Shown here piece after piece: positions 16,527 through 49,577 of a stretch of DNA of 64,000 bases. Each line of letters starts with the position of its first letter. The stretch's first letter is position 1. The notes under the pieces were generated by a model. The model had not been told where the DNA came from and ran no database searches. It saw only the letters and a list, made by a program, of their open reading frames with translations. A program made the translations under genes and the position numbers. This DNA is from Thermothielavioides terrestris NRRL 8126 (lineage: Eukaryota; Ascomycota; Sordariomycetes; Sordariales; Chaetomiaceae), in NCBI RefSeq assembly GCF_000226115.1, contig NC_016459.1, positions 2,279,501 through 2,343,500 on the forward strand, given 5' to 3'.

Positions 16527-17264
16527 CGACAGGCAGCTCGTGTCGGCTGCAGTCCAAGTCGGGGAACTCGACTGGACAATCTGGCCTCCCCGACCCGACG
16601 GTTTGGAACCGGCCTTCGTTAGTTCGCGCGGCGCTTCCGCTCGCTAGATCGAACTGCCAGAACTTGTGGAATGCAAGGAGCTCCGAGCAGCAGCCGGCAA
16701 ACTCGCAAGCGGGGTGGCCGGCTCCTCTAAAACGGCGAAACTTGCCCAAAGAGTCGCCGTCGCAATTTCACCCCAATGAAGAACCCAGGGCGGCAAGCAT
16801 TTTTTTTAGTCAAGAAGTTTGTACGAACGCGAGCCAATGAGCACAGCCAGAGAAAATAGAGGCGGTACTAGTGCTGACGCTAGGCTGCCTCGGCTGCGGG
16901 TGAGCATTGCTTCGGGCGGTTTTCTGAGGATATCATCCATTGGATGGATAGGTAGGATATCGCTGAGCAGAGCATCACTATTCTGCGTGAAGTGCACTTT
17001 CCTCAAAGGAGGTAGGTAGGTACGGTTGGCGTCTTCTCAAAAGTTGAAGGTTCGGAGTCTTGGAGTAAACTTGTCCCGAGCTGAATGCAGCAATGCCGCC
17101 CCCTTCCCAGGCAGCCACCACACTCCTTCAATTTGCGCCAATTGAATGGATCGCCCCAGAGCCAAGAAACGTCCACAGTCGGCAACTCCCTGGTCGGCAG
17201 TTTCAAAACAAGCCACCTTGACCGCGAATCGTGAACCTGCCGACAACCACGCCCGACGCCCCAA
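16527..17264. promoter_or_regulatory. divergent promoter region between the membrane-protein and CHORD-like genes
   Basis: 738 bp between divergent starts. It contains repeated GGTAGGTA units (17009-17020, and a weaker one near 16951) of a kind I associate with Sordariomycete promoters, plus ATTGG boxes. No TATA box was assigned. Confidence 0.45.
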
Positions 17265-21001: not shown

Positions 21002-21251
21002 TGATGCGGAGAAGTGCAGTAGATGCGTAGAATAACAAGATGTCGATTGATGGTGATGGTGGATCAAAGATCTAGGCGGTAGTGCGCTAAGAAATATATG
21101 TCTATAGGGCAGAACATATATATATACACCGCCTGCCCAAATGGGCCTAGCGTCGCAAAGTCTACAACGTAGGGCATAGGGCACCCTTATCTAATCTATA
21201 TACACAGATATATAGGTTATATAACCCCCCTATTCCTCCTACCCTATATCA
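21002..21251 (-). repeat. A2 LTR (3' LTR in coding sense)
   Basis: It starts TGATGCGGAG and ends CCTATATCA. It matches 28949-29197 along its full length with mostly C/T and G/A differences. Its minus strand contains an open frame starting MPYALRCRLCDARP. Confidence 0.9.
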
Positions 21252-23858: not shown

Positions 23859-24134
23859 CTACTCTAGAGCCTTTAGGTTATTTGGAAAAGCAAGGTTCCT
23901 AAAGGCGACGATATAGTACTCTATATTAGTTAATCTAAATCTATCGATATAGAAACTAAGCAGCTCTATACTAGGATATACAATATACGACTTAGCTAGC
24001 GTAATAGAGATGTTCTTCTTCTCGAATAAGCTGAAGATAGTTTCTAGATACTTAGTATACTCGTCTATAGTGTCGCTAAAGATAATAATGTCGTCGATAA
24101 ATACGTAGGCAAAAGAGGCGTAAAGGCGAAGCAA
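23859..24134 (-). pseudogene. A2 reverse transcriptase fragment still open
   Basis: A 91-codon stretch of the RT palm without stops reads FIDDIIIFSDTIDEYTKYLE followed by LFEKKN. This is the gypsy-type (Y/F)xDD block and the following helix. The catalytic Asp pair is intact here, but the flanking frame carries many RIP stops, so the enzyme is dead. Confidence 0.85.
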
Positions 24135-25784
24135 CTGATCTATAAAACGCTAGATATATATAGGGGTATTACAGTAGCCTATTAGGTATACTTTCGGCTA
24201 TTCTAATCTACAAAGGCTAATTAGGGTAAAGCGGTCGTAATATAGAGGATATACATTAAATTGATAGAAGAAGGATATAGCATCGATCGTAGTAATGAAC
24301 TTCTTACCTTATAAATATACGATGATGTCCAATTACAAAGGTAGAGGGTAGTTGTCGAATACTATAACCTTGTTGAAAGCGTATAAATCGATAACTACGT
24401 AGCCATTGATCTTACTACGAGAAGTACGCTAAACAATAAACACTAGATATATAAAAGGAGTAGCCTTCGTAGCCTATTCAAAGCGCTTTTACCAATATAG
24501 TTCGTCAAAAGTAGTATTAAAAACTTTATAATCGTAAACGCTTAGAGGGTATTGGTAAACGTAGATCTTCTAATGCTACTAGCCTTCTACAATAGGCATT
24601 TACATTATATCCTCTTCGTCCTAGACAACTTAGCCCTTATCTTTCCACAGACGGGGATAACGCTTAACAATATTAACAAATCGCTAAGCTAGCTTACAAT
24701 CTTAGGTATATACGTATATACCCTCTAAAGTAAGTATCTCTAGTAAGTCGGTAGGTATTTTAAGGCCTAGAGTTAAGTGTTTCTCTAGCACTATCGGCTT
24801 ACGGTCGTTAAGAGGCAATTCGAGGTTAGGATTACACCTATTGGTATAACTATCAGTGCTAGGATCATAGATCGATTAGCGCAATATAGGCTAGGTAGGC
24901 TAGCCTAGTAGGTGCACTAATTGGTATAATACAGGTCTAGATTTAGATAAAGTAGTTAGCTAATATACTACGTTGCTATAAGGCGTCGATAGCTCTAGCG
25001 AGTCTTACGAAGATACTAGGGTCTAGGACGAAATATCGTTTATAAATTATATAGAGTCTCCTAGAATAGTATAAACTAGGCTATATATATCGAATACAGT
25101 TGATACGCTAGGGCTAGTGTACTGAACAGCGGTTTAAACTGAACTAGGGTTTACAATGGTAGACATTGCTATCAAGGCGGTCGCTATAGTCAATGCTATA
25201 AAGGCTGTCTCCTAGGAATAGGCGATATAACTACTATTGTCAATATCCTCGATCTAGCTAATAGGGTAGCGCTTTAGAATAGTAAAAACTCCCTTGGTCG
25301 GGTTCTTAAGAGCTACTACTTTAGGGGTTTTAGCGTTAACAACGGCGTTCAATATAGTAGGATAGCAAACGTTAAACATTATAGACCGGTCTATCGAGAG
25401 AGGCTTATATTCTATAGCGATAAACGCCTTCTGCTCGGGCTATAAGGTGACGGCGCGTATAGTCTTAACTTTACATATATAGGGGAATGTCCAAATATAT
25501 ATAGCGAATAGTATATTAAATCCTCCTAAGATACTATATAGGCTAGCGATCTTCGTACTATAATCGATAGAGGCCTAATATAGATCTAGGAAGTCGGCTC
25601 CTAATAGGAGGTTGGTAGATAGCTTATCTACTACCTAGGTGGACCGAGTAAACTTAAGGAGTACTAGGCTAGTAGTGGTAACGCCTAGCAGGTAAATAAC
25701 GAAGGTCGCCTACTAGGTAGGCGAAGTCTTTCCAATACTACGAATATAGCTATTATAGCGTTTAATCGAGTGTTCGAAAGTACT

Positions 25785-28948: not shown

Positions 28949-29197
28949 TGATATAGAGAAGTGCAATAGATGCGTAGAATAATAAGATGTCGATTGATAG
29001 TGATAGTAGATCGAAGATCCGAGCGGTAGTGCACTAAGAAATATATGTCTGCAGGGCAGAACATATATACGTACACCGCCTGCCCGAATAGGCCTAGCGT
29101 CGCAAAGTCTGCAACGCGGGGCGTAGGGCACCCTTATCTAATCTACGTACATAGATATATAGGTCACATGACCCCCCTGTTCCTCCTGCCCTATATC
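28949..29197 (-). repeat. A2 LTR (5' LTR in coding sense)
   Basis: It starts TGATATAGAG and ends CCTATATCA. Differences from the left LTR are mainly transitions, for example GATGCGG versus GATATAG. It is followed by the second TCCTC. Confidence 0.9.
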
Positions 29198-29202
29198 ATC
29201 CT
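29198..29202. repeat. target-site duplication TCCTC, right copy
   Basis: It matches 20997-21001. A1 sequence continues immediately after. Confidence 0.9.
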
Positions 29203-30109
29203 CTTAGAAGCGTTACCGGTCTTAATACAGCCTTCCTTGTAGCCCTTTCTTAGCAATGTGGTCTTACGAGCCTGTAGAGGCTCTACTAGCTATATGTAGT
29301 ATAGGATTAGGTGCTGTAGAAAGCCTATAGCACCGATATACTATTTAAGCGCTTTAAGAGTATATAGAAAGGCGAGCTATTTAAACGCTTTAACGCGCTA
29401 TATAGTAGTTGTAAGGCTTAGGCTATCAACGTAGAAGCTAAGTAGTTCAACGCTTAGATATCCTATATATAACTTGGCTAGTGAGAAAGCGATATTCTTG
29501 TTGGCAAAGAGGCTGAAAATTGTATCTAGGTACTGTATATAATCCTTAGCATCGTCTAAATAGATTACGATATTGTCGATAAAAGCTTGTATATATGCCG
29601 AATACAGTTTGAGCAGTCGATCTATAATACGCTATATATATATAGGCGAATTGCAGTAGCCTATTAGGTAAACTGTAGGCTGTTCAAGGCTATGTAGGCT
29701 GATTAAAGTAAATCGATTACGATATAGTGGATATACGCCGAATTAGTAGGAAAACAAGGTGGCATCGATCGCTATAATAAAGCGTTTGCTATATAACTTA
29801 GCGATAATCTCCGACTATAAGGGCAGGGAATAGTTATTAGGCACCGTTACACGATTCAAGCTTCGTAGATCGATGACAACGTAGCCCTTAAGTTCTCTAT
29901 TGTAGCTAGGTCGCTATACTACGAACATAGGGTATACGAAAGGAGTAGCCTAGGTGGCCTAGGTTATATAGCCTTACTTATATAGGCTGTCGAAAGTCTT
30001 GTCGAGGACCTTTCGGTCCTTCTTGCTCAATGGGTAGGATTGAGCGTTGACCTTCTGATTTTACTAGCCTTCTACTAGAGGTATATATATTAGTTCGTCT
30101 AGGTCTTAC
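29203..30109 (-). pseudogene. A1 segment 2: RT portion, RIP-damaged
   Basis: It aligns with A2 positions of about 23.75-24.63 kb and so continues A1 across the A2 insertion. The RT active site at 29572-29580 reads FIDN rather than FIDD, a G-to-A change expected from RIP. It is cut at 30109 by B1 with the sequence TTAC duplicated. Confidence 0.8.
30106..30109. repeat. target-site duplication TTAC, left copy (B1 insertion)
   Basis: TTAC precedes the B1 LTR and recurs at 43239-43242 after the other LTR. Removing B1 and one TTAC restores an A1 sequence that aligns with A2. Confidence 0.8.
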
Positions 30110-30606
30110 TAAAATGGTGTAAAACCTCTATACCAACCTACCCTACTACACCTAGGATCAGGCGTACGAGATAGCTCCTAAAGGAATACAGTGTACCTCT
30201 AGACAGATGAAGATAGTACATATCGAGTAGTAGGAAGGATGTCTCCTAAGAGGAAGACATATAGCTTAGGTACGTCTAGTGGGATATAGTAGAAAGATAA
30301 AAGACAATAAGAATACGGTTAGAGCTCAATAGCTCGAATGCCCACCGTCTAAATAGAGGTAGAACAACGAAAGGAGAGGCTCAATAGCCTTCCTAGAAGA
30401 AAGAGGACCACCAACGTAGTGTCAACGAATATATATTGACAACTGCTTAATATCTTACTTAATGATAAAGAAGATAGGCTTAGCCTATTTAAATATATAT
30501 AATTAGAGGGCTAGACCCCCTAACAACGAATATAACACTCTAAGATAAATAGAAAAGTAGAAAAACTAGGTCCCCCTATATCTAACTAGTCTATTACCCT
30601 AATCTA
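30110..30606 (-). repeat. B1 LTR (3' LTR in coding sense), 497 bp
   Basis: It begins TAAAATGGTGTAAAACC (RIP form of TGAAATGG) and ends CCCTAATCTA. It is colinear with the LTRs at 42742, 46380 and, inverted, 54786, all of 497 bp. Confidence 0.9.
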
Positions 30607-30618
30607 CACTTCTCTTTC

Positions 30619-30649
30619 AAGCTTACTATATACTCCTATAGGTAAGCTT
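30619..30649. repeat. hairpin next to the B1 3' LTR
   Basis: AAGCTTAC and GTAAGCTT form 8-bp arms around a 15-nt loop. The same structure is at 46889-46919 in B2. It lies at the end of the protease frame and could be a terminator or polypurine-tract-proximal structure; that is inference. Confidence 0.5.
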
Positions 30650-33250
30650 ATACCTTAAAAGCTCTTTTAGTAGGTACTTCTTATCGTCGCTACTCTTTAA
30701 GCTACTCCTTATATATAGCTCGCTCGATTTGTAAAGGTCTAGTTGGCTATAGTAGCTGATCCTACTGTCTTTTATACTCCTCTACCTCCTTGATATATAT
30801 ATCCTAGCCCTACTACTATACTAGATACTTATACTTATAAGCGAAGGTATAGTTGTATAGGTTGTATAGTAGTAGGCGAAATAGACGTCTAAGCTTCGTA
30901 GGCTCTTTGCAAAGGCGTTTACTATAGTATTGCACTAAAGGTAACGTCTAGCTAGATAATATAGGTGATCTATATATCTAAAGATGCTTTTATACTAGTG
31001 TATAAAGCATCTTAAGGTAGTCTAGCCTCCTTATAAGTATATAGACGAGCGTCTTCTTTTCCTAGAGGTAGAGATTAAGTACTATCTTTTTAAAGGTTAC
31101 CTATACTAATGCCTTAAGATCTTTGACTAGGTCGCTACTAAGGAGGCGCTCCTAGTCCATCTTGTCTATAAGGGTATTAATAAACCTTTATATCGTAGTC
31201 GCTTATAGTATAGTAATCTCTATAATCTTAGCTTTAATATCCTATTAAATTGATATATTGTTAAGATCTTCTATAAATACTACTAGTAGACTTAAAGTAG
31301 CTTACTAGTCCTTTAGTCGAAAGGGCGGAATAGTGCTAGGTACTAGAAACGTACTCTATAGCTATTGTCTAAGGTCGTCTATAGGGTTTTATAAAGGTAG
31401 TATATCGCTTAGCTATCTATCTAGTAGGAGTCCTACAACTCTATAATAGTATACCTAGTAGGCTACGTCCTTCTTTAACTAGGGTATAAGGATAATTTAG
31501 GCGGTAGCGATTACTCCTTTCTTACTCTAGTTAAGGAGCTAAGCTTCTTTAAATACTACTAAGTATATAGCTAGGATCTTAAGTTCTATATCGCTAAAGT
31601 GATTATAGAGATATATAGGTAGGTCATCGAGTCTAGGAACATTGGATATAAATACGTCGTTGGCCTAGAGGACTGCGATTACCTTATCTTCGTTGTACTC
31701 TAAGACTATAGACTATATAGGCTCTTTAGTCGAAGATAGTAGGTCTAGAAGGAGCTTATATATTTTACTATTATCTTATAGCAGTGAAGAGACTACTTTA
31801 GTATAAAGTAGGCAATCCTTAAAGGTACTAAGAGCTAGTCTATAAGTTTCTAACTATAAGTACAATATATACTACTATACAACTATTTTACTATCTCCTT
31901 AATATAGTCAAAGCTAGGGTAGTCTAAACTACGTCTATCCGTTTAGAAGACGGGGCTAGAGTTCTTAAAGAAAGGCCTATATAAACTTAAGGGTAAACTA
32001 TCTATACTCCTATTCTAAACTTTATCAAAGGTAGTAGACGATGACCTCTTTATATAGCTATATCTAAAGGAACCTATAGATAGATTGAAAGGCGATCTAG
32101 ACCTTTAATAAGATATTAGTATATGTCTCTAAGCTCTTAAATAGGGAGTCGAAGTAGTAGAGCTAACCTCTAACTTAATCGAAGATCGCAACTACCCAAT
32201 GCCTTCTATCAATAAAGTAAAGGAAAACTTAAAAATAGCAATTGTTGGCAATGACCCTCTAGTTAAATTGGTAGAACTCCTTTAATATAAGACTATAGTC
32301 TAAGACTAGCTATAGGTAGATCTAGAGACAGTCTTTGTAAAGACGAAAGAAAAACTATATAACGTCTAAGATTGTCCTATAATCTAGCTATTCCTTACTA
32401 AGCAATATACCTTCTATATCGAAGAGCAAAATACCTATATCTATAAAATAGATATTGAAAAACCGATCTATTAGGGACCTTTCCTCTAGCTAGTCTAGGA
32501 ATAGGTACTTTATAATCTTAGGGTTTACACTAAGCTAAGGGCTTAGGATCTAATTAGGTCGTCGATTAATTATATCTTATAGGTACTTCTTTAAAGTCTA
32601 TAAAAATAGGAAAAGCTTAGGGCTAGTCTTACCTAGGTAGCCTAGTATCTTTAAGCCTAGCTCTTATTATATAAGGGAGATATAATACTATGTCTAATCG
32701 CTATCGCTAATAGGCCTTTATAAACCTTGTAGTATATAAAACTTAAGCTCTCTAAGTAGCTGCTTCTATCCTAGGTTAGCAATTATATTGGCCTAGGGCT
32801 ATATAGGCCCTATAAAATTAGGAATTCTACAATAGCCTATAGCGATATTTACGATAGTATATAAAAAATTGGTTTATAAGAAAAGTCGCTCTCTAAGTAG
32901 AAAGATCTAGACTAATTAAAACGATTACAAGAAAAAATTAGAGTATAATAGGCGAGATAAAAGAAATAATTGATCGTAAGCGAACTAGTAAGAGGATTAA
33001 GAAAAAGCGGTAGGCAAGCCTTCGAAGGTAGGAGGGCTATTTAGCTCTTTCCTAAACTAGGTAAAAGAAAACGGATAAGGCTTATAGCGTCTACTAATTA
33101 GCTAGAAATGAGCATTTGCCCCCTAAACTCTTAAGGCCTTCCTCTCCTCCTTACTATCCTAGAACTATTTTCTTTTTTTAACTTTCTCACCACTTTACTC
33201 TAGTGCCCTCCTCTCTCTAGTCGGATTAGGTTCTTAGCTAAGTCTTCTAC
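30640..33250 (-). pseudogene. B1 cargo gene: Ulp1/C48-like cysteine (SUMO-type) protease, RIP-killed
   Basis: One minus-strand frame runs about 870 codons without frameshift, broken almost only by TAG/TAA (and a TGA) of the kind RIP makes from TGG, CAG and CAA. A catalytic block reads RRHWVVAIFD (His codon 32199-32201), then YYFDSL (Asp 32148-32150), then Q-S-L-E-W-E-C-G-R-F-A-L in its unmutated form. The Gln codon is now TAA and the Cys codon 32004-32006 is now TAT. Spacing is His to Asp 17, His to Cys 65, Gln six before Cys; yeast Ulp1 has 17, 66 and 6. The family cleaves SUMO or related modifiers. About 390 residues precede the catalytic block and about 450 follow; both flanks are unrecognised. 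The start codon is not identifiable and the end is uncertain, since any stop may be RIP-made. Confidence 0.75.
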
Positions 33251-33258
33251 TTCCTTTT

Positions 33259-33291
33259 TAAATTTATATATAGCTCCTATATATAAATTTA
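33259..33291. repeat. perfect palindrome between the two divergent B1 cargo frames
   Basis: Arms TAAATTTATATATAG and CTATATATAAATTTA flank a CTC spacer. It lies 16 bp upstream of the ATG of the plus-strand frame and at the start of the minus-strand protease frame. B2 keeps a perfect palindrome at 49529-49561 with different bases in the arms. Confidence 0.85.
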
Positions 33292-33307
33292 TAACCTAGA
33301 AACTATA

Positions 33308-34666
33308 ATGCTAAGCAACTAGTATATCTACGATATATCGTAGGAAATCACTAATAAAGCGAGCGACTAGAGGCTACTACTATATAGGATTACAAACTGT
33401 TAGATCGATCTTTTACTAATATCGAAAACAACGATCTTTATAGCCTAGAAATACGTCTAGGTAGTCTAAAGTAAAATAAGGGATTCGCTAATATCGAAAG
33501 ATAAACGCTATACTAATAAGTATACTATAATCTTAGTTAAATATAAGGCTATTTATAGTATAATTAAGATCTATCGACTAAACGTTAGATTACTATATAT
33601 CCAATAGGTCCTACTAAGCAATTAGCAAGATTAGTATAGGATATAGCGATTGGTTTATATCGACGATAGGCTAATTAACGTAGTTGAATAGTACTATAAT
33701 ATCTAGGTCCTTCGTCCAATGTTTATAGAGCATTATAATAGTAGACCATTTAAGCGTTAGATATATTATCTTACTATACGCCTAAACCGAGCGTCAACGC
33801 TTTTAATCTAGGTATAGGGTCGTAAATAAACGTTGTACTTCCCTTTTATATTCGCCCTCTAAGTAGAAGAAGACTAATACTTTTATAGTAACAAGGTGCT
33901 TTGCTATAGCTATAAACTATTATACTAATGTTCAACAACTCTTTTTAGTAAAGACGGAGACGTCTATATAACTTAGCCCTTTAATAGCTACACTTCTCTT
34001 ACTTCTCTCTTTAGCAATAAGTACACTAACTATATCTAGTTAGAGAAGGAGTATACTTAGACTTACGTCTATAGGAATGATTAGAAGTACTTAGCTTAGG
34101 ACTTAATCTTATAGGACTATCTTTTATACAATTCGAAGAACGATCCTAGGCTAAAGCTATACCTAGAAGAGGTAGGCTAAAAGTGGTTTATCCTACTAGA
34201 GGTTGCTATTAGAGAACAAATAGTATAGTACTAGGCTAATCGTAAAAGCTTACGTTACTAAAGGATAGAGAAAACGGATAGGGATAAATAGAGGGTAGGA
34301 TATAGTCTAGGAGCTTAGCCTATAGATAATAGATCGAAAGACTATATATCCTAATTATAGATTTTTCTTAGCTTTAACTTTAGCTCTAAGAAACTTAGTC
34401 CTATATAATAGAAACTATCTATCTAAAGGATAAAAGTGAAAAAGAAAAGGTAAAAACGACTATAAAGCCTCTAAGAGTAGAGCCGCCCTTTAGAAAGAAA
34501 ACTTAGATACTAGTGAAAAAGAATAAGGGCTTAAAGGATAAAAATAAATAAACGATAGTAGATAGACGAAGACTAAGTGAGACGTAGCTAATAGAGATAT
34601 TATTAGTAAGTAGAAGGCTAATATAACAATAGGTATTAGGAAGAAAATATAGTAAAACGTTAATGA
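33308..34666 (+). pseudogene. B1 cargo gene 2: unrecognised 452-codon frame, antisense to gag-pol
   Basis: From the ATG at 33308 one plus-strand frame extends 452 codons to a TGA at 34664-34666, interrupted almost only by TAG/TAA that RIP can make from TGG, CAG or CAA, plus one TGA where B2 has CGA. B2 has the same frame with the same start and stop spacing (49578-50936). Recognisable text includes KNDPRLKLYLEEVG and ANRKSLRY. The centre has several Cys or Cys-derived codons (KVLCYSYKL), and the last ~100 residues are strongly basic (KVKKKR). No known domain was recognised; a nucleic-acid-binding protein is possible from the basic tail, but this is speculation. It is divergent from the protease and convergent with pol. 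Confidence 0.72.
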
Positions 34667-34739
34667 AACTATTGGAGGTAGTAGCTTCTAGGACCTCCCT
34701 CCTTCTTAAACTATATATCTTTATACGTTTAGAGGGCTA

Positions 34740-37700
34740 ATGTTAAAAACTAAGTAGTTTTCTATATAGGATTTCTATAATAAGCTTTTAACGAGGTTAC
34801 TCCTTCTTTACCCCCTTTGTAGTAGTACGAGTTTAGCCTGCCTAAGGCGCTATAGTACAACTAGGGGTTTCTTCCTTAAGGACCTCCTCCTCTACTATAG
34901 TTGCAACGTCCTTAGCAACTATTTATATAATTTCCTCCCTTAGTAGGCTATCGCTATAAATATAATAAGGATCGCTAAAGCGGTACTATCGACTAGTTAA
35001 GGCGCTATATAGTTCGTTGCTATAAGGAAGTTTAACCAGTTGACTATTGTTAGAAGTCTTAGCTAGTTAATAGGGGTGATAACCTATAGTCTAGTCGCTA
35101 ATATTCTAGTTGTCTTTGGTAGTACTCGACCCCTCTTTACTATCTTTATAGAGCTTTAAACGACTATCGAGGTAGTAGCGTTCTCCTTAGAAGTGTCTAG
35201 TATATATCTCTCTATTATAGAGCGCTAAAGTAGCTAAATCTCGGTTAGCGCTAGGGCTAGGATTAGCTCCCCCGTCGTTCTATACTTTGTTATAGCGACT
35301 ATCGAGGCGATAGCCTCTATCGAGGTAGCTATCGTTGTAGCAACCGTTATAGTAATATTCGTCGTCGCTATACCCCTCTAAGTAGAGGAACAGGTTTATA
35401 CTATCTACTTCTAGCTAGACGTTATCTAGTTTAAAGAACTTCTTTATATAATTTAGAGGATATAGCGTCTAGATAGGTATATTATCCAAAGTCTCTAGGA
35501 AGTAAGTGTCCTAGTCTTTGATTATCTAAACGTAGAATAGGCTAAACCAACGATACTCTAGCTTTTAGACTAAGCTTATATCTAGCTACTAAACGTTATT
35601 GTAGATAAGGACGAGGTCGCCAATAGATATTACCGTGTTTTCTAGGCGAAATTTACATTTATAGGCCTTATTGTAGCGTTTAGCTAGCTTTTTATAAGCT
35701 ATAGCAACCTATTTAACGACAATCTTATAGTTGTACTTAGCTTCCTAGAGGATATAAGTATAGAAGGCAATAAGCTTTATATAGAGTCTTATAGGATCCT
35801 CTCCCTCTATCTAGGTATAGATAGAGTCCTAGGTAAGAATTTACTAAATAGGAACATTAAACTTGACTAGACTAATAGGCTTATAGTTGTAGATAAGAAA
35901 GAAGGGAGATATTCTATAAGAGCCTCTAACAGTTATACGATCTATATATAAGATATATAGAAGGAGCTTCCTCTACCTCTTTCCTATACTATTAGTCATC
36001 TTTATAAACAAGATAGTAATCAGGATATAACTAGCCTTATTCACTCCGTTTATATATAAATTATATAGTAAAATAATGACTCTCCTAATCTATAGTTTAT
36101 AGAGGATCTCCTTAACTTCGTCCTTGAACTTAGAGCCTCTATCGACGACTATAACAATAGAGTAACCCTAGCGACAAAGGATATACTATATAATAAAGGA
36201 CTTAATAGCTTTAAAGGACTTATTTAGTAGGATCTTAGCTTTAATATATTCTATAAGATCGTTGTATACCTCGACGAGGAAATACTTCTTCTTTTTATAG
36301 CTAAACAGTATATATTAGATATCGAGGTGCTATTTAGTAAAAGGGAAAGGCAGAGGCATAGTCTAGTTTGCCACTTCCTCGAACCTTTAGGCATTATACA
36401 TCTAATATAGTGTACAAGCCTAAATCTACTCTACTATATCTTTGTATATACTATACTAGTAGTAGTAGTTCGTTACTCGTCGATACGTCACCTCTCTCCT
36501 ATAATAGCCAACTTCGCTATAGTACTAGTCGAAGATCAAACGCCTCTCTTTAGGGATATCAACAACGTACTTATAATACTACGAATGGTTTATACTCTAG
36601 AGGAAAAGGTAATAATCTTTAACGAAGTACTTTACTACTTCCCTTTTGAGCTAATGTCGCTTCTAGTATAGCCTATAGCCTAGTGGGGTCTCTATCGTCG
36701 ATAAGAAGTAAGCGATGTCCTAGGAACGCTAGGAATAATCGTCCTAAAGGCGGATAGGCTCTAGCTTCCCTTCTAGATACAATGCCTCTTCGCCTATACG
36801 GTTGACAAAGATCTAGGCGTTGACCTAATCGTTGATATCCTCCTCTACTTTCTTCTCTATATAGTTAGAGGGCCTAGGAGGTTTATAGGACAACGCGTTG
36901 GCTACAACATTCTTAGGACCTAGGATATACTTAACTTCGAAGTTAAATAGATAGATCTAGGCGATCCAACGTATTATTAGAGCACCTAGAACATTGTTTA
37001 TAGTACTATTAAGCTGATAGACTAGAACCAAAGTATTAGTCTCTATAATAAAACGTATACTAAAGAGGTAGCGACGAAAACGCTTTAGAAGGAAGAGTAG
37101 CCTCTTTAACTCCCTCTTCGTAGTATTATACTGCTTTTCTACCTTTGACTAAATACCGCTCTCGAACTAATATAGATGTCTTTTACTATTAGGGCTAATC
37201 TACTTAAGTACTCTACTCTATCTAAGGATATTAGCGTTGTAGACTAAAAAGATTATATTGAACTAAGGATTATTATAGATAAGTATCACTAAAACTAAAG
37301 TAGTAATGATTTTCTCCTTTAGTTTATCTATCGCCTTTTATTTAGAGGGCCCCTAGGTCTACTTAGCATCTTTCTTTATTAAGGTATATAAAGGAATCGC
37401 GATAATCGTAAAACCTTTAATCTAAATCTAGTAGTATCTAACTATTTTAACGAAAATATATACCTCTTTAATATTAGAATAGGTCTTCTACTCCCTTATC
37501 TTAATCACCTTTGCTTCTTTAGGAAGGTGCCCCTCTAGTATATAGAGATAACTAAGTAGGACTACTTTTAGTTACATCTACTTCAATTTCTTAATAGCGA
37601 TAGTCGTACTTACTAGCTCTACGTTTAGCAACATTATATCGATATTCTTAAGATGCTTAACAATAAATTCTCGACGTCCCCCTTTATCTAAATAGCTAGT

Positions 37701-40700
37701 ATAATTAGATCGAGGACCTTTTATAGTGATATCGTCTAGATAGATACGATAAATATTAGGGATAAGGTTATCGAAGATCATTGTTATAGCTTGCTAGAAC
37801 TAGGCAATGGAATTTATATCTCCTATTAGCAGTATATATATATAGAAGAGCTTAATTAGCGTTGTAAAAGTCGTTAAATCCTAGCTATACTTATAGAGGT
37901 TGACCTAGTTGTATCTAGAGAAGAGATCTAGGAGGGATATTAGTCTATAGCCCTCGAAGTCTTTACTAAATTCCTCTATAGTAGGTAGAACGAAAGTATT
38001 ATAGATCGTTATAGTATTAGCCTTTTAAATATCATTGATAAGCTATAAACTACTATCCTTTTTTAGAACTAGGAACTAGTTATTATAGTAGCTTATATAG
38101 CTATACTCAATGATTCTTTATATCTACTTCTCTCTAAGTAGATCAACGACCTTCTATATTAGCAGTTTTAGGATTAGGATCGACTTACTTTGCTAGGCCT
38201 TATATAGGATAGTCCTAATATACTAGGGCGGAACGACGTCTTTATAGATATACTTATACTTAGTAAAATCCTATATAAACGTAGCCTCCTAGTTCTATAA
38301 GATCTTAGTAAATATCTCTCTCTTTAGCTTAGTGAGAAAACTATCTATAGTAGCGAGCATTTCTTAAAGACGCTTTTCAGTAAGTCTCAAGCCTAGTTCA
38401 AGATCTAAGAAACGAAGGACTATAAGGTCTTCCTAGTCCTTCTTAAACTATATTTTAGCTTTAGCCTTCGTAAGCCGCTTTTCTTACTATAACAGGTCTC
38501 CCTTTAGCGTAGAGCTATCCAACAGTGCTAAGTCAATAGGCTAAACCTTATTCGTAATATTCTTCTAGAGTATAAACGTCCTTAGGGCCTCCTTAAACTT
38601 ATAGTAGAATACCCGCCTTAGCCTTCTATTAGAAAAGAGGTTTCTAATCGGGGTCCCCTTCTTCCCTTTTAAATAGGGCAACAATTTAATTTTACCCTTC
38701 TTCTTCCGTCTAGACAAAGAAGATAATAAATAAGAATATATAATATAAAAAAGAGTGCTAAAGAGTAGTATATAAGACTTCTATAAAATAAAATAAAAAA
38801 CTGCTTTACCTATATAATCGTCGAGGAAACTAAGAGTAGTCTCGCCCTTTTCTATCTCTACCTAGTCAAAGATTCTTTTAAGACTCTTCGTTAATCCTTG
38901 AAATTACTTCTAAATAGATAGTTATATTAGAGATAATAAGCAATTTCGTTGGACAATCTTCTTAAAGACAATATATACCTAGACTATCTTCTTCTCTATA
39001 ATTAGATTAACGGTAATTAAGTTACTATCGTAGTAATCGAAGGTTAGAGCGATATCTTTGATAAACGATATACTAAGGATTACTTTATAGCTATTAGTAA
39101 TGTCCTTAGTTATAAAGAAGTGAAGGTTGATACCGACTCCTCCTAGGTATAAAGTGACCTAAGTCTCTCTAATAAATGGTGCTAAGCTATAAAGACCCTT
39201 TAAAATAACCTTAGTAGGCTAGTATAGTATTATATACTTTTCAACAATATTTATTAAGATATAGTTATACTTTAAACCAAAGTCGATCAAAGTAAGGTGC
39301 TTATTATAATAGCCCTTTTCGAACTAGATATATAGAGTAGGAAGAGACTATACTTTTATTATTATACTAAGTTCTATATATTACAAGACTAAAAGCGTTG
39401 AGATAGACTTCTAGAGCAAAGTATAGATATAATTATCAATGTCTCTAGATAGACCTTTATAAATCCAATATTCCTAGAGGCTTCCTATATAAATACCCTA
39501 TATACTGTCTTTAATAACTTTAAAGATTACTAGAACTATCTTAGTTTAACTAAAGGAAAAGTCGTTAAATATATTTATATTAGTATATAGAGCCTATATA
39601 TAGACCCTTATATCTTTTAGTACAGTGGTTAGTCTATTAGGCTTAGGAACATTGGACCCCTTATAGTCAATGACCTCAACGTTAGTGGAAATGCCCTATA
39701 GATATACGATTAAAGCGTTCTTATACTTAGGTAAGATATAGACTAAGTTATCAAGGGTTAGACTGGTCTTCGCCTTTATCGTAATATAGATTATATCCTT
39801 TATATACAAAGGCAATATAGTAACCTTTAGCGTAGGTGGCTTAGACTATAGCTCCTCTTTCTTTATATAATTTACTATAGCTAGGTTTTTAAGGATAGTT
39901 ATATAAAGAGGCTCCGCTAAAGGTATAGGAGTGCCACCTATCTAGAAGTCATCTTCCTTTTTGTCCTCAACGAACCAACGTTTAATAGGCAATGTACTTT
40001 AAAGTATAGTCTCTACTTTCTCGTCCACTTCCTCTTTAGCTTCCCCCTCGGTCTAGTCAAAGAGAGGAAGAGGTAGTTGATAGAATTCGTTAGCCTTTAA
40101 TATAGGCTATAAGACAACCTTCTAAGTTAAGATACGACCTCCCTCTAATGGAACTATATAAAACGACAACTAATTAGACGCTATATAATAGAAGGTGGAG
40201 GTAAGCTTAGGCTCCCCTTTATATATAAGACGATTGATCGTCGTCTAGACGGTTGTAGGCTCCTAATACGGTTTAGGCTACTAGAGGTAGTGCTTATTTA
40301 GCATTAGAGATATATCTAGCTTAAATAGGCGACTATTTAAGTGTTTATACTTACAATAGTATACCTAGTATATAGGGTAGCTATTATACTATAGGCAATA
40401 GGCTATATATACGAGGACAAGCTAGCTAATCTTGCTAACCTCTTATATATTATCAACATTTGCCTTTATAAAGGTGATCGTCTTAGCTAGTATATAGCCC
40501 TTCTTACTCCTATCGCTAAGGTAGTAGTCTATACCCTTATAATATATTAGACCTATAGCTATAGCTTTTATAGCTTCTATATACTTAAAGACTATATAGT
40601 TAGAGTTACTATAATAGTAGCAATAGCTAGAGCTTATAGGTCTACTATAGCTAGAAGGACGATTATCAATATATAGGCCAGTGATAAAGCTAATACGTCT

Positions 40701-41855
40701 CTCCTATAAGTAGCTCCACTACTAGAAATATATCTAGAGAACCTTAATCTCGTTAAGAGTAGGATCGATTCTATATAAACAAAGGGCTTCGATCTTCTAC
40801 TCAAACTACTTAGCGATCTTCTACTTCTAGATACGTAGACGCTAGAGCTAATTAGCTAGATCATTGATATCGTCGAGCGTAGGTATAAGAGCTTTCTTTG
40901 GCTCCTCCTCTTCCTACTTCTATAGCTTAGGGGTCGTCTTAATAGTAGACGTAGCTAGAGGCGAGTAGTACTTCTATAAATCGATCTTACGCTCGTAGGT
41001 CTTAAGAAAGAGGTCTTCTACGTTAAGACCCTTTTAAAGAGTATCCTAAACGAACTTAAGGAAGTTTATTTACTTTATAGTATAGATAGAGTCCTTATTG
41101 TCCTTCTTTAGGGTATACTAACGATCTTTAAGAGCTATCTAGATCTATTAATTAAATATATACTATATAGTTGGAACGATTATATACTATAGCTCTTTAT
41201 AAACTTTAGTAAAGGCGATAGCGTATATACAATTAATTAACTTAAAGTAGTTATAGATAACTTTATTGACTAGTTAGCATTTCTTTTCGATTAGATTATA
41301 AAAGTAACCTCTGTCTCTATACTATTTAGGATCGTCGCCCTTCTAGCACTTTAGGAACTTAGCTTTAAAAGCTACTTAGGTCTCTTAATCCTTTTTCTCC
41401 TAATAATAGATAATAGGCTAGATCGTAGTATTGTACTAAAGTTCGAATAGATATATATAGGTCTTGTTATTAGTAACCTAATGAGCCTTATATATCTCTT
41501 TGAAGATTTCGATCTAATATATAGCATTCTGACTAGAGAAACGGCCTTAAAGGCTAGCCTTCGCTAGAGTCGGAAAGGTTGTGCTAAACGTAGTAGCAAG
41601 AATATACTTAGTCATCTTCTTTAGAGCTTTAGCTTTGGAGAGACTAGAAGGTATTACTATAGATACCTCTATATAGATAGGCGGAGTAGAGGTATCTAGC
41701 GAAGATAGAAGGGGTGTTTACACCGCTTTAGCCAAGTCTTCTTCGCTTAATATACCTTAGAAAGACTATAAGATAGATATATCTTTAGACTTTCCTTCGA
41801 AGGTTAATGTTAAGATTAATAGTATTATAGAGGTCGACGGAATTCCTAGAGCTTC
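34740..41855 (-). pseudogene. B1 gag-pol polyprotein, Ty3/gypsy order, RIP-damaged
   Basis: Colinear with the B3 polyprotein frame, which is easier to read. The RT active site YLDD lies at 37731-37742, in a stop-free stretch (37578-37781) reading IYRIYLDDITIKGPRSNY. Upstream in coding sense are gag with a zinc knuckle remnant (about 40.6 kb) and protease. Downstream are RNase H and integrase to about 35.4 kb, then a Tyr/Asp/Arg-rich C-terminal extension. Confidence 0.85.
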
Positions 41856-42741
41856 TATAGACAGTATATGTATATATCGCTAGAGTCTAGTTATTAGACG
41901 CTTAGCTATTGTCTTTAAGAAAGGCAACGACTATATCGATAGACTATAAAAAGACTAATATATATACTTCTATAGGAATATTAACTCCTTTAACGTCTAT
42001 CCAAAGGAAGAAAACCTTTTAAAAAGCTAGGTTCTTTTAGAATATATAGTCTAAACGTTCTAAAGGATGACTATAGGTTCCTTATAGATTACCTAGATAT
42101 CCTTAGCAACCAATATACTAGACCTAACTAGTGTAATAGCGGTAAGAGTATAGCTCTTAAGAAGAAAAGTAAAAGTCTATACTAAGACCTTATATCTAAT
42201 ATAAAACAATGCTAGATATACTATTAGAAGGAGCTAAGTGTCGTAAAGGTATAGTCCTAAGCTTAGAAGCTTATAAGTAGCTACTACATTTAACTACTTT
42301 TATAACTAGTTTAGCTAGACTAAGGAAGAAAATGATAATCGATAAAAATTCTACCCCTATCTTTATTTAGGAGGATAGAACTGTCGTCTTTCGATTAGAT
42401 TAGCGTTTTACAACCGCTATATCGATAATAACAAAGCTTCAATAGGTCTTTAAAGTGTTGAGGATAATGGAATATCTTTTCGATGCCCTACGCTATCTAG
42501 GCAAAGGAAGGTCTCCTAGGACAAGGTCTCAATAGACCCCTAGAACGTATATACCTCAATAGGTTTCTATACCTCCTAGAGATATCGGTATTAGTATACT
42601 AGAGCCTTAATAGGTTAGCTATATCGTTGTTATATAGCTATTAATATAGTATTGTATAGTTCTATAATCTTAGAAGACTTTGTAGTCTATACTATCCCAT
42701 TTAAATATAGAGCTAAGCTCCTTCCCGATTAAGCCTCTATT

Positions 42742-43238
42742 TGAAATAGTATAAAACCTTTATACTAACCTACCCTACTATACCTAGGATCAAGTGTATA
42801 AGATAGCTCTTAAAGGAATATAGTATACCTCTAGATAGATGAAGATAGTATATATCGAGTAGTAGGAAGGATATCTCCTAAGAGGAAGATACGTAGCTTA
42901 GATACGTTTAATAGAATATAGTAGAAAGACAAAAGACAATAAGAATATAGTCAGAGCTCAATAGCTCGAATGCCTATCGTCTAGACAGAGGTAGAACAAC
43001 GAAAGGAGAGGCTTAATAGCCTTCCTAGAAGAAGGAGGACTACCAACGTAGTGTCAATGAACATGTATTGACAACTGCTTAATATCTTGTTTAATGATAA
43101 AGAAGATAGGCTTAGCCTACTTAAATATATATGATTAGAGGGCTAGACCCCCTAACAACGAATGCAACGCTCTAAGACAAATAGAAAAGTAGAAAAACTA
43201 GGTCCCCCTATGTCTAGGTAGTCTATCACCCTAATCTA
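42742..43238 (-). repeat. B1 LTR (5' LTR in coding sense), 497 bp
   Basis: It begins TGAAATAGTATAAAACC and ends CCCTAATCTA. It is followed by TTAC at 43239-43242 and then A1 sequence. The inner side reads AATAGAGGCTTAATCGGG on the minus strand, possibly a primer-binding site with TGG turned to TAG; the tRNA was not identified. Confidence 0.9.
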
Positions 43239-46200
43239 TTACTATACAAGGCCTTTATCCTTTTAGAGGCTAGGATATCGCTTAATAACCTCGATGAATC
43301 AGTTAGTGATATTAGAATCCTTAGTATATATATATACGCTGTCCTTAGTAACGACCTTATCTAGGCTTAGATCTATACAAAGGCTGAGAGTTGACTACTT
43401 CTCCGGTACGAATGGCTTGCTAGCTGGTTTAAGGTCGTTGGCCTATACTAGTTAGAAGACGTAGTCGCTTATCGGCGTGGTGGAATTGGTATCATTGAAT
43501 TCGTTAGCGGAGACAGCCTTTGCGAGGTTGATAGCTAGGGGTATCGATGACTTGTCGTAGCTATACCGAGCTATAGCTACGATATAGTCATCGAACGCGA
43601 ATTCGCTATTGATTGGTATAACCGCGGTAGACTACGCTACTAAATAAGGGGGTTTGATATCTGTGGCTACGGCTAGGGTGGCTATCGTAGTTATCGCTGT
43701 ATTAGCTACTAAGGCCGTTAGGGTAGAAGTCTAGGAATACACTAGGAAACTACTATCTTTGTATTTGTAGATCTTGCCTACTAGGTACCACTTTAGGATC
43801 TTGATAATGCTATACAAAGTGTTCTTGATAGTAGCTACTTTGGCGGTTCTAGCTATAACTATAGCGTAGTATATAGCTAGGTGGTTGGAGTGAAATATAA
43901 AGGATCGGCCTTTCGGCAGTAGTTTATATTCGACTAGGATCTCCGCCTCCTAGTTAGGTAAAAGTATAATCGTATAGGTAGTCTTAACCTTATATATATA
44001 TAGCGTAGAGTATACATTGATAGTGAACGGGATAGTAAACTTAAGAGCCTAGAGGTCGACCTTCTTTGTACTATAGTTGATTAGGGCGTAGTAGCTATCT
44101 AGAAAATTGTTATTAAATAGGAGATTAGGTCCTAGGGAATCCACTACCTAGGTAGAGTAGATAAACTTGTATAAGGTAGGCTTGTTGTCCTTTATATTAG
44201 CTAGGAAGATAGTAAAGGTGGCCTAATACGAGAGGGCGAGCTTCTTATTACTTATATTTATTACCTTGCCTTTACAGCGTTCAATAGTGTAATTAAAGTA
44301 GTTCAATAAGTTTCGACCGATAATGGAATAGCTAGCTCCTAGATCGAGGTACACTTCTAGTTCCTCGCTATCTTCCTTTATATAGGCGGCAATACAAAGG
44401 TGGGTATAATTGCTAAGTGGGCTATCGATACTATCGTTTGATTCTAGGGCTAGAGCTTCCTTGACTTAGTACACTATAACTTCAAGGGTCTCCGGCTTAC
44501 GCTCTATAGCTAATTCGTCTATAGATTCTACTGCTATAGCTATTGTTCTAATCTTTACTAGACGGCGAAAAATGCTATTCTTTATGTCCTTACAATGCTT
44601 CAAATACTAGAACAGAGCGTTGTAAGAATCTAGGACAGTAGCATAGTAGCTATAAGTACAACGTTTAAGTATAGCCTAGTTAGCTATATAGTTCTTCTAG
44701 ACGCGCCTTGGCCCAGTGCCTTTATAGGTCTTAACGTGCTATTACACTTCTTGCTTAGCTTGAAAGGTCTTATAGCACTTATAGTATATAAGCTTTAAAT
44801 CAATAACTATATAGGCGATCTCTAATTCTAAGGATAATACGATAATAGATATAGTAGAGCATTCCGATATAGTATCTAACGTATCGGCATTGTTCCTAGA
44901 TTCGGGATTAGCAGTAAAATACGTATAGTTATAGTGCTGGTCGCGCTTATAGTCGTCATTATATTAGCCTTTTTAGTCGTTGCGCTAGTCCTTCTAATCG
45001 TCGTGTCAGTCGTCACGTCGGCGGTCGTCCTTCTTATAGTCACGATTACAACGATTATACTCTTAGAGTCGGCGTTCATCACGATCCTAGTCACAGTCGG
45101 CTAGGCGGTAGTAATCGCCGCTATAGCAATAGCGATCCTTATAATTGCTTCGAGACCTATTAGCCTAATATTAAAGCGTCTGCTTAGTCTTTTCTTCCTT
45201 CTCTTTACTACTCGGCTTCTTCTATATATTAGGATGCTTCTTTATAGCCGTTGACTTCAATATAGCTCGCGATTGCTTTTACTCGTATAGGCACTAATTA
45301 AGCAATATAAAAAACTAGAGGTAACGAATATAGCGTTGGATATTCAGATCTATATATTCCTAGATCTAATGTATAGTACCCTACTAGTTAGAGCCGTCTA
45401 CATTGTCGTTCATTGTATATACTTAGCGCAATTTGCGTTCAATGAACTTTATAAAAGCTTCTTCGTTAATAGCGATATCCTTGAGATATAGGAACATAGT
45501 ATTGAATTTCTTTATAGCCACCATTGAATCTAGCTTAAAGCGCTTACTTAGGGCCTCTAATATCGCTTTAAGGCCTTGCTCTTTAAGAAAGCGACAATAG
45601 CTATTGGAAATTCCTTCGAACTACTAGAGTTGGGCCCTACCTTTAAGGAGCGTAGGAAACATTTTAACAATCTGCCACTTAATAGATCCGTCGTTATCCT
45701 CGATAAAGGTCTCAATATAGGCTTAAAAACGATAAGCATTAGTATAAGTAATCGCCTTACCTTCGTAGATTACTCCTAGGCCATTAGGGTCTAGGTAGAA
45801 AGGATCAAAGACACTAATGTCCTTACATTTAACCTTGAATTCGGTTTAGCTTGTTATATAGCTAGAATTATAAGTGCTATCGTAGTACTAGCAGCTATTA
45901 GGCGTTAGGCTATCGCTTTAAAGGTTTAGACAATAACAATGATATAGTTCTACTTAGCGTAGGCTATTATAAACGAGGTTGTACTAGGAGCTAATAGCTA
46001 TACCTTCTTTAGAAATCGGATATACCGTCTATATAGGAATAGGCTATATAGGCTAAGCTAGTAGGTTTAGCTACGCCGGTAGGTAAGGCTATGCTAGCTA
46101 GTGAGGAGCCTAGTTAACTAGATATATAGGTGCCTACTAACGTAGATCTAGGTCGATATATAATGTAACTAGTGTGGTTATAGCTAGCTACGCTAGAGGC

Positions 46201-46379
46201 GTTTATAGAAGACGATCGACTAGCGAAGCCTAGCTCTGCCTATAGTAGTCCTCCGTTACTATACGCTGTCTTAGTATACGCTATAGGCTGTTTAACGTCA
46301 AATTATCGAGGCCTAGAATAGTGGGCTAAGGTTGACGCTAAGTCTAAGATAGTAAAATACCCGTATATAGGCGATCTAT
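43239..46379 (-). pseudogene. A1 segment 3: protease and gag portion, RIP-damaged
   Basis: It aligns with A2 from about 24.65 kb onward, continuing A1 across the B1 insertion. On the minus strand LDLGASYSIIGRN (about 44.3 kb) marks the protease. The Arg/Asp-rich gag region lies at about 44.9-45.15 kb. It is cut at 46379 by B2, and the A1 5' end is outside the window. Confidence 0.8.
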
Positions 46380-46876
46380 TGAAATGGTGCAAAACCTCTA
46401 TACTAACCTACCCTACTACACCCAGGATCAGGCGTATAAGATAGCTCCTAAAGGAATATAGTATACCTCTGGACGAATGAAGATAGTATATATCGAATAG
46501 TAGGAAGAATATCTCCTAAGAGGAAGATATATAACTTAGGTACGTCTAGTAGGATATAATAGAAAGACAAAAGACAATAAGAATATAGTCAGAGCTCAAT
46601 AGTTCGAATGCCTACCGTCTAGACAGAGGTAGGACAACGAAAGGAGAGGCTCAATAGCCTTCTTAGAAGAAGGAGGACTACCAACGTAGTGTCAATAAAC
46701 GTATATTAACAACTGCTTAATGTTTTACTTAATAATAAAGAAGATAGGTTTAGCCTACTTAAATATATATAATTAGAGGGCTAGACCCTCTAATAACGAA
46801 TATAATGCTCTAAGACAAATAGAAAAGTAGAAAAACTAGGTCCCCCTATATCTAGGTAGTCTATTACCCTAATCTA
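46380..46876 (-). repeat. B2 LTR (3' LTR in coding sense), 497 bp
   Basis: It begins TGAAATGGTGCAAAACC, the least mutated start among the four copies, and ends CCCTAATCTA. It is followed by the same internal sequence as the B1 3' LTR. Confidence 0.9.
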
Positions 46877-46909
46877 CACTTCCCTTTTAAGCTTACTATA
46901 TACTTCTAT

Positions 46910-49520
46910 AGGTAAGCTTATACTTTAAAAGCTCTCTTGGTAGGCACTTCTTATTGTCGCTACTCCTTAAGCTACTCCCTATATATAGCTCGCTCGGCTC
47001 ACAAAGGTCTAGTTGGCTATAGTAGCTAATCTCACCGTCTTTTATACTCCTCTACCTCCTTAATATATATGTCCTAGCCCTACTACTATACTAGATACTT
47101 ATACTTATAAACGAAGGTATAGTCGTATAGGTTGTATAGTAGTAGGCGAAGTAGACGTCTAGGCTTCGTAGGCTCTTTACGAAGGCGTTTATTATAGTGC
47201 TATACTAAAGGTGACGTTTAGCCAAATAACGTAGGTGATCTATATACCTAAAGATACTTCTATACTAGTATATAAGGCAATTTAAGGTAGTCTAGCCTCC
47301 TTATAAGTATATAGATAAGCGTCTCCTCTTCCTAAAGGTAGAGATCGAGTACTATCTTCTTAAGGGCTACCTATACTAGTGCCTTAAGGTTCTTAACTAG
47401 GTCGCTATTAAGGAGATGCTCCTAGTCTATCTTGTCTATAGGGGCATCAACAAACCTTTGTATTATAGTCGCTTATAATATAGTAATCTCTATAATCTTA
47501 GCTTCAATATCCCACTAGGTTGATATATTGTTAAGATCTTCTATAAATGCCGCTAGTAGACCTAAAGTAGCTTATTAGTCCTCTAGTCGAAAGGGTAGAA
47601 TAGTGTTAGGTACTAGAAATATACTCTATAGCTATTGTCCAAGGTCGTCTACAAAGTTTTACAAAGGTAGTATACTGCTTAGCTATCTATCTAGTAGGAG
47701 TCCTATAACCCTATAGTAGTATACTCGATAGGCTATATCCTTCTTTAACTAGGGTACAAGGATAATTTAAGCGATAGCGATTACTCCTTTCTCGCTCTAG
47801 TTAGAGAGCTGGGCTTCCCTAAATGCCATTGAGTATATAGCTAGGATCCTAAGTTCTATATCACTAAAGTAGTCGTAGAGATATATAGGTAGATCATCGA
47901 GTCTAGGAACATTAGATATAAATATATCGTTGGCCTAGAGGACTTTGATCACTTTATCTTCATTGTACTTTGAGACTATAGGCTATATAAGCTCTTTGGT
48001 CAAAGATAGTAGGTCTAAAGGGAGCTTATACATTTTGCTATTGTCCTATAGCAATAAAGGGACTACTTTAGCGTAAAGTAGACAATCCTTAAAGGTATTA
48101 AGAGCTAGCCTATAAGTTCCTAACTATAAATATAATATACATTACTATACAACTATCTTATTGTCTCCCTAGTATAGCTAAAGCTAGGGTAGTTTAAATT
48201 ACGTCTATCTATCTAGAAGGTAGAGCTAGAGTTCTTAAAAAAAGGCTTATATAAACTTAAAGGCGAACTATCTATACTTCTATTCTAAACTTTACTAAAG
48301 ACAATAGACAATGACCTCCTTATATAGCTACGTCTAAAGGAACCTATAGATAGACTAAAAAGCGATCTAGACCTCTAATAAGATATCGATATATATCTCT
48401 AAGCTCTTAAATAGGGAGTCGAAGTAGTAGAGCCGACCTCCAACTTAATTAAAGATCGCAATTACCTAATATCTTCTGCCAACGAAGTAAAGGAAAACCT
48501 AGAAACGGCAATTATTGGCAATAACCCTCTAGTTAGACTAGTAGAACTCCTTTGGTATAGAACTATAGTCCAAGACTAGCTATAGATAGATCTAGAGACA
48601 ATCCTTATAAAGGTAAAAGAAAAACTATATAATGTCTAAGATTGTCCTATAATCTAGCTATTCTTTACTAAGCAATATACCTTCTATATTAAAGAGCGAA
48701 ATATCTATATCTATAAAACAGATATTGAAAAACTGATTTATTAGGGGCCTTCCCTCTAGCTAGTCTAAGAATAAATACTTTATAATCTTAAGGTTCGTGT
48801 TAAGCTAAGGGCTTAGAATCTAGTTAGGTCGTTGGTTAATTATATCTTATAGATACTTCTTCGAAATCTATAAAAATAGGAAAAGCTTAGGGCTAGTCTC
48901 ACCTAGGTAGCCTAGTATCTTTAAGCTTAGCTCTTACTATACGAAGGAGGTATAATACTACGCCTAATCGCCATTGCTAGTAAACCTCTATAAACCTTGT
49001 AGTATATAAAACTTAAGCTCTCTAAGCAGCTACTTCTATCCTAGGTTAATAGTTATATTGGCCTAGGGCTATATAAGCCTTATAAAATCGAGAATTCTAC
49101 AATAGCCTATAGCGATATTTGCGATAGTATATAAAAAATTGGTTTATAAGAAAAGTCGCTCTCTAGGTAGAAAGATCTAGACTAATTAAAACGATTGTAA
49201 GAAAAAATTAAAGTGTAATAGGCGAGGTAGAAGAAATGGTTAATCGTAAACGAACTAGTAGGAGGATTAAGAAAAAGGAGTAGACAAGCCTTCGAAGGTA
49301 AGAGGGCTACTTAGCTCTTTCCTAAACTAGACGAAAGAAAACGAATAAGGCTTATAGCGCCTATTGATTAGCTAGAAATGAGTATTCGCCTTCTAAACTC
49401 TTAAGGCCTTCCTCTCCTTCTTACTATCTTAGAACTATTTTCTTCCTCCAACCTTCTTACTACTTTATTCTAATGCCCTCCTCTCTCTAGTTGGATTAGG
49501 TTCTTAGCTAGGTCTTCTAC
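46910..49520 (-). pseudogene. B2 copy of the Ulp1/C48-like protease cargo gene
   Basis: Colinear with B1 30640-33250 with no net indel. The catalytic His codon (48469-48471) is TAT and the following Trp codon is TAG. The catalytic Cys codon is TAT and the Gln codon is TAA, as in B1. RIP has thus removed all three residues. The differing hits in the two copies help recover which positions were CAT, TGT and CAA. Confidence 0.72.
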
Positions 49521-49528
49521 TTCCCTTT

Positions 49529-49561
49529 TAAATTTGTATATAGCTCCTATATACAAATTTA
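49529..49561. repeat. perfect palindrome between the divergent B2 cargo frames
   Basis: Arms TAAATTTGTATATAG and CTATATACAAATTTA around CTC. The B1 copy differs at the matching position in both arms, so pairing is kept. Confidence 0.85.
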
Positions 49562-49577
49562 TAACCTAGAAACTATA

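Follow-up and report, generated by a model that had tools for sequence, protein, structure and literature searches.

A RIP-mutated Ty3/gypsy-order retrotransposon of Thermothielavioides terrestris carries a third open reading frame with the catalytic spacing of C48 proteases

What did the gene lying between pol and the 3' long terminal repeat (LTR) of a dead fungal retrotransposon once encode? The question is raised by a 64,000-bp stretch of the genome of Thermothielavioides terrestris NRRL 8126 (contig NC_016459.1, positions 2,279,501 to 2,343,500; hereafter the window), in which a reading made from the letters alone (the sequence-only reading) had placed, at positions 30640–33250, a Ulp1/C48-like SUMO-type protease carried as cargo by a Ty3/gypsy retrotransposon. 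The carrier and the location both held up under analysis, the gene being a third open reading frame (ORF) at 30684–32918, inside that region and longer than the motifs by which it was noticed. The protease assignment stood in part: the catalytic columns and their spacing fit family C48, whereas the best Pfam score lies below the cut-off and no solved structure was matched. The reading that we favour, with moderate confidence, is that the third gene of this Ty3/gypsy-order element encoded a Ulp1-like protease, which would have been an active isopeptidase removing SUMO or a related modifier before the element was inactivated by repeat-induced point mutation (RIP).

The copy concerned, element 1, has the following parts in window coordinates.

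30112 to 43239, minus strand (sense): the LTR retrotransposon copy, 13.1 kb, delimited by an LTR pair and flanking TACTA
42744 to 43239, minus strand: 5' LTR, from the LTR pair, its outer end uncertain by 1–2 bases
36393 to 37976, minus strand: pol, with reverse transcriptase, RNase H and integrase zinc domain
30684 to 32918, minus strand: third ORF of about 745 codons, situated between pol and the 3' LTR and disrupted by point mutations in 60 of 60 scored copies
30609 to 30618, minus strand: polypurine-tract-like run adjoining the 3' LTR, read from the printed sequence
30112 to 30607, minus strand: 3' LTR, from the LTR pair

The two LTRs are 90.1% identical across 495 bp, and TACTA stands on both sides of the element (30107–30111 and 43240–43244); direct LTRs with a target-site duplication are thus documented for element 1 only. 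With stops read as X, Pfam searches located RNase H at about 37346–36960 (RT_RNaseH and RT_RNaseH_2) and the integrase zinc domain at 36551–36393 (Integrase_H2C2), both on the minus strand, and the reverse transcriptase was positioned at about 37976–37722 through alignment with copy L044, in which RVT_1 was detected. RVT_1, RT_RNaseH and Integrase_H2C2 occur in that order in L044 and in four of five further copies tested (L040, L042, L043 and L047), RNase H alone being detected in the fifth (L045); the RVT_1 and Integrase_H2C2 matches score below the Pfam cut-offs. The pol searches of the copies tested did not reveal the catalytic integrase core, and neither gag nor an aspartic protease was recognized in the Pfam search of the mutated sequence of element 1. 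Because the order reverse transcriptase, RNase H, integrase is that of Ty3/gypsy elements, the sense strand of element 1 is the minus strand, and the element is a Ty3/gypsy-order LTR retrotransposon of high copy number.

The window is AT-rich rightward of about 18 kb. Within element 1 the TpA/ApT ratio is 1.72 and the (CpA+TpG)/(ApC+GpT) ratio 0.34, compared with 0.55 and 1.18 in bases 1–17000 of the window, and these values are a signature of RIP. Each of the 60 scored copies of the third ORF contains 53–77 in-frame stops; the element with its third ORF is dead, mutated in every copy scored.

That the third ORF is an integral ORF of the LTR element is all but certain. A search of the genome (36.9 Mb in six contigs) with the read-through of one copy gave 126 candidates, of which 60 were scored, and all 60, the query copy included, matched the ORF. 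Fifty-eight span it from residue 11 or earlier to residue 743 or 744, that is, at least 734 of 744 residues; the other two cover residues 92–743 and 3–698. Frameshifting indels cluster immediately outside the frame, at about 32931–32942 and 30668–30681 of the window, and inside it almost every indel either has a length divisible by three or is compensated, apart from rare shifts in single copies. Across the 2.6-kb region, polymorphic transversions, a class of change that RIP does not produce, number 46, 36 and 25 at codon positions 3, 1 and 2 of the third-ORF frame, the corresponding counts in pol being 46, 19 and 11.

These observations bear on a different origin for the gene, in which a Ulp1-carrying DNA transposon (Mutator-, Crypton- or Ginger-like) inserted into an ancestor of the LTR element and then multiplied with it as a passenger that played no part in it. 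Ulp1 domains are known from such transposons (PMC2836005, PMC3212892), and about 2.5 kb without assigned function separates pol from the third ORF. However, the 3' LTR was reached downstream of the third ORF at 30 of the 30 loci extracted, no convincing terminal inverted repeats were found around the ORF, and no transposase family was recognized between pol and the ORF in the minus frames or in six frames of pieces, a weak negative in this sequence. The frame is moreover kept in two diverged subfamilies, which suggests selection. We consider a passenger origin very improbable.

The motifs that drew attention to the ORF were found as described: on the minus strand HWVVAIFD begins at 32201 and FDSL at 32153, and the residues are spaced H–D 17, H–Q 59, H–C 65 and Q–C 6. 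The sequence-only reading was also right that RIP had mutated the Gln and Cys codons, element 1 having a stop and a Tyr there. The columns, scored in 30 aligned copies, are as follows.

32388 to 32390, minus strand: position 63 residues before the His, corresponding to the Trp of the C48 motif WL[ND]; stop in 30/30, then Leu, then Asp or Glu
32199 to 32201, minus strand: candidate catalytic His (HW); His in 20/30, Tyr in 10/30
32148 to 32150, minus strand: candidate catalytic Asp (DS[LI]); Asp in 25/30, Asn in 5/30
32022 to 32024, minus strand: candidate oxyanion Gln; Gln in 19/30, stop in 11/30 including element 1
32004 to 32006, minus strand: candidate nucleophile Cys; Cys in 1/30, Tyr in 29/30 including element 1

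The Trp column of HW reads Trp in 10 copies and stop in 20, and every substitution in the His, Trp, Asp, Gln and Cys columns is of the RIP type. Genome-wide, the nucleophile position holds Cys in three and Tyr in 51 of the 54 copies matched by two patterns, and the three Cys-keeping copies are distributed over both subfamilies, as judged by position and identity. Given the direction of RIP and the presence of Cys in both subfamilies, we infer that Cys was the ancestral residue. The sequence-only reading had offered a residue other than Cys at this position in other copies as an argument against a protease; since Cys is kept in these three copies, that argument does not apply.

Comparison with reference proteins placed these columns within the range of MEROPS family C48. 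The motif filter passed 124 of 125 reference C48 proteins, with H–D 17 in all 124 and H–C ranging from 59 to 70; the filter itself required HW, D[ST] within 14–20 and Q-x4-[DE]CG, thereby fixing Q–C at 6. The H–C spacing of the host Ulp1 is 65, the same as in the third ORF. A WL[ND]-type motif lies 63–97 residues before the His in the reference set, and the third ORF has Leu at −62 and Asp or Glu at −61. The residue before the Cys position is Glu in 26 and Lys in four of the 30 copies. The order His, Asp, Gln, Cys of the third ORF and its spacing fit C48.

Could such a pattern have arisen by coincidence in an extra ORF, env-like or otherwise, whose product has an unrelated fold? Additional ORFs downstream of pol and ahead of the 3' LTR are indeed described for several LTR elements (PMC7264820, PMC5408684), and the lack of a significant family or fold match, together with the failure of the 21-letter profile scans described below, speaks for such a reading. 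In the 30 aligned copies, the third-ORF frame contains nine His-type, four Trp-type, 23 Gln-type and eight Cys-type columns, yet only a single HW pair and a single Q-x5-C pair, and these are C48-spaced. When the columns of the 745-column frame were permuted, HW with DS recurred in 0.0135% of permutations; the complete pattern, with Q-x5-C also in range, recurred in none of 200,000. A correction for the frames looked at is due to these values, the frame having been chosen for its motif. Further evidence against coincidence came from the profile searches, the best matches of which, by hidden Markov model (HMM) and by profile-profile comparison, fall on HW..DSL without making use of Q or C. A chance resemblance is rather improbable.

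Independently of the motif, an HMM built from five C48 proteins and run over six frames of 46 kb gave its best site at 32225–32115 (3.6 bits; runner-up −0.3), the maximum among 40 random blocks being 2.4 bits. Profile-profile comparison with 120 C48 proteins returned an E value of 0.007 for the third-ORF frame and 0.003 for the domain alone, with 0.07–0.87 for the other five frames and 0.23 for the reversed profile. When TAG, TAA and TGA were each read as one residue, one of 27 copies matched Pfam at E ≤ 10, and it did so with Peptidase_C48 only, at E 0.03 and over HW..DSL.

A considerable number of results weigh against a C48 protease, and they concern both the matches themselves and the coding signal. 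The HMM match has an E value of 2.3 in its own setting and is not significant, and the HH-suite probabilities of the profile-profile matches are only 2–11% (5% for the frame and 11% for the domain alone). The best Pfam score, 14.6 bits, is under the curated cut-off of 20.7 bits for Peptidase_C48 (PF02902), which no copy passes. A decoy frame read in the same manner matched six unrelated Pfam families with best E values of 0.04–0.8; an E value of 0.03 by itself therefore means little, and the weight rests on which family was matched. With stops read as X, no Pfam family was found in 29 copies of the domain or in 12 copies of the whole ORF. Profile searches against solved structures returned no match, and no homologue was recognized in a protein database that includes fungal proteins, among 65 candidates at E ≤ 1e-3 and 8000 scored at E ≤ 10. 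The 21-letter profile scans, run with a plain and a RIP-degraded profile under three gap settings, never ranked the site first (12.5–15.2, against null medians of 22.0–23.2). Two AlphaFold2 models have a mean predicted local distance difference test (pLDDT) of 36.4 and 38.5, too low to interpret either way. At the residue level, Arg or Lys follows the Cys position in all 30 copies where C48 proteins have Gly, in a RIP-prone context, and the Trp position of WL[ND] is uniformly a stop. With respect to coding, the protease-like stretch has no third-position excess of transversions (13, 13 and 7 at positions 3, 1 and 2), the transversions fixed between subfamilies number 14, 18 and 9 at the same positions, and stops shared by all copies are not rarer in the third-ORF frame (27) than in the remaining two frames of the sense strand (33 and 19). 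A family search of the genome with PF02902 gave five matches, all of them host genes and none within the element; among viral contigs 376 pattern matches were obtained and none was confirmed, and plasmids gave no match.

How much a negative Pfam result can say was assessed with host genes that are intact C48 proteases, the Ulp1 (69.6 bits) and a SENP8-type protease (48.6 bits). Six heavily mutated in silico versions were made and four were searched, the two of locus L001 being left out; all Pfam matches were lost in 4/4 (host Ulp1 and SENP8-type). A milder simulation, slightly gentler than the mutation of the region itself (GC 0.35–0.38 versus 0.34), left the Ulp1 with 27.9 and 15.4 bits and the SENP8-type protease with no match in two of two, so that one of four passed the cut-off. 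As host C48 domains lose their Pfam match once mutated, the negative Pfam result on the third ORF is weak evidence. Taking the evidence together, the third ORF very probably contained a C48 domain, and its protease was probably active before RIP. Its product of about 745 residues most likely consisted of a Ulp1-like (MEROPS C48, clan CE) cysteine-protease domain spanning approximately residues 170–330 and a further 400 residues.

The host Ulp1 gene itself lies in a perfect duplication (loci L002 and L003, G000:C1:6053870-6057418 and C6:2166009-2169557), its frame open in both copies. The duplication extends over about 25–45 kb: samples of 400 bp are identical at −10, −5, +8 and +15 kb and unrelated at −20 and +25 kb and beyond. 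A perfect duplication is odd for a genome with RIP, and it represents either a recent event or an assembly error.

If the domain was a C48-fold protease, it may still have processed the Gag-Pol or Gag of its own element instead of acting as a deSUMOylase. Adenovirus-type clan CE proteases cleave their own precursors, and the motif evidence from the HMM, the profile-profile comparison and the permutations would serve such a role equally well. In addition, an aspartic protease domain was undetected in the stretches searched, and in the NeSL and Utopia elements Ulp1-like domains are part of the element's own reverse transcriptase protein (PMC4640811). The absence of an aspartic protease is, however, uninformative where heavy mutation hides domains; the third ORF is downstream of pol, with no gag fusion seen, and the 124 filtered references, which are mostly named SUMO or Nedd8 proteases, share HW and DS at an H–D distance of 17. 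Self-processing seems to us improbable.

Returning to the Ulp1-like isopeptidase that we favour, SUMO removal is the function of the best-known members of C48, and by analogy with them the case for SUMO as the substrate is about evenly balanced. The ancestral protein would have taken SUMO (or a related modifier) off its targets, either host proteins or the Gag or integrase of the element itself. Yeast ulp1 mutants, like those in which SUMO conjugation is reduced, have raised levels of Ty1 RNA, and more Ty1 RNA leads to more retrotransposition (PMC8585004). By an effect similar to that of reduced SUMOylation on Ty1 RNA, deSUMOylation by the element's protease might have increased transcription or integration of the element. 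A fungal Ty3/gypsy lineage that used its own SUMO protease to remove SUMO from silencing or transcription factors of the host would constitute a previously undescribed counter-defence of LTR elements, a proposal that we put forward as doubtful. If it holds, Ulp1-like proteases would have been acquired by LTR retrotransposons as well as by DNA transposons and non-LTR elements, the case for the SUMO pathway as a recurrent target of transposons would become stronger, and filamentous fungi would provide a natural setting in which a link of SUMO to the control of LTR elements can be tested.

Other features of the window concern further copies of the element.

46375 to 54784, minus strand: second copy, internally deleted, which keeps the third ORF (matching stretch 46910–49520, locus L015)
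54783 to 64000, plus strand: third copy, continuing past the window end, with its third ORF beyond the window (locus L022)

From the second copy about 2.55 kb is missing, the integrase region with it, and on its 5' side the copy ends at the start of the next element. In the interval between pol and the third ORF, positions 33000–34450 of the minus strand also show few frameshifting indels and hold a coding-like segment, KEVEDLAKNLIRLERGG...RIVRRRGRP, in which Pfam gave no match; this stretch may be a further ORF. At about 7854–8340 from the 5' end of the element (window about 35388–34902), three copies of the more distant subfamily, L045–L047, are unalignable with element 1 while both flanks align, a replaced linker after pol. 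Direct repeats to the left of element 1 (21002–21251 with 28949–29198, and 24130–24353 with 29612–29835) apparently belong to a separate repeat family. Rfam gave zero matches within the window.

Among LTR elements, the plant elements that carry additional ORFs (PMC7264820) and the bdelloid elements that carry ORF3 (PMC5408684) also have an ORF in sense orientation after pol and before the 3' LTR. The products named for those ORFs differ, being env-like proteins, a GDSL esterase/lipase, DEDDy-like proteins and others, and neither main text contains the term SUMO or the term peptidase. Complex elements with extra domains are mentioned in a survey of fungal LTR elements (PMC3248453), and 'C48' does not appear in its main text, supplements aside. 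The sequence-only reading knew of no fungal LTR element with such cargo, and for LTR elements this agrees with the literature searched, consulted in excerpts and with subscription journals and Repbase outside its scope, in which no Ulp1 was found in an LTR element. Beyond LTR elements, Ulp1-like cargo is already known in print from both DNA transposons and non-LTR retrotransposons. Oomycete CryptonF and CryptonS are mobile elements that carry a C48 peptidase in the form of an accessory domain or accessory protein, but they are tyrosine-recombinase DNA transposons (PMC3212892). NeSL and Utopia-1_TSP are retrotransposons with a Ulp1-like cysteine protease, yet they are non-LTR elements from nematodes with the protease N-terminal in the reverse transcriptase protein (PMC4640811). 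An identity with NeSL/Utopia, which have no LTRs and encode a restriction-like endonuclease, is ruled out by the LTRs and the integrase zinc domain. Ulp1 domains occur in Mutator elements and in Ginger1 DNA transposons, the latter combining a Gypsy-type integrase with a Ulp1 or OTU domain (PMC2836005). In uniting an integrase of this type with a Ulp1 domain Ginger1 resembles the present element, but it has terminal inverted repeats and its Ulp1 domain fused to the transposase, where the present element has LTRs, reverse transcriptase, RNase H and a separate ORF (PMC2836005). A Ginger1 identity is excluded by the LTRs together with reverse transcriptase and RNase H. From the Ulp1/SENP SUMO proteases (MEROPS C48, PF02902) the third ORF differs in being borne by an element, in being mutated in all scored copies, in the lack of a Gly after the Cys in the copies seen and in scoring below the Pfam cut-off, whereas it shares with them the order and spacing of His, Asp, Gln and Cys, the HW and DS[LI] motifs, an acidic residue before the Cys (26/30 copies) and a Leu-Asp/Glu pair 62–61 residues ahead of the His.
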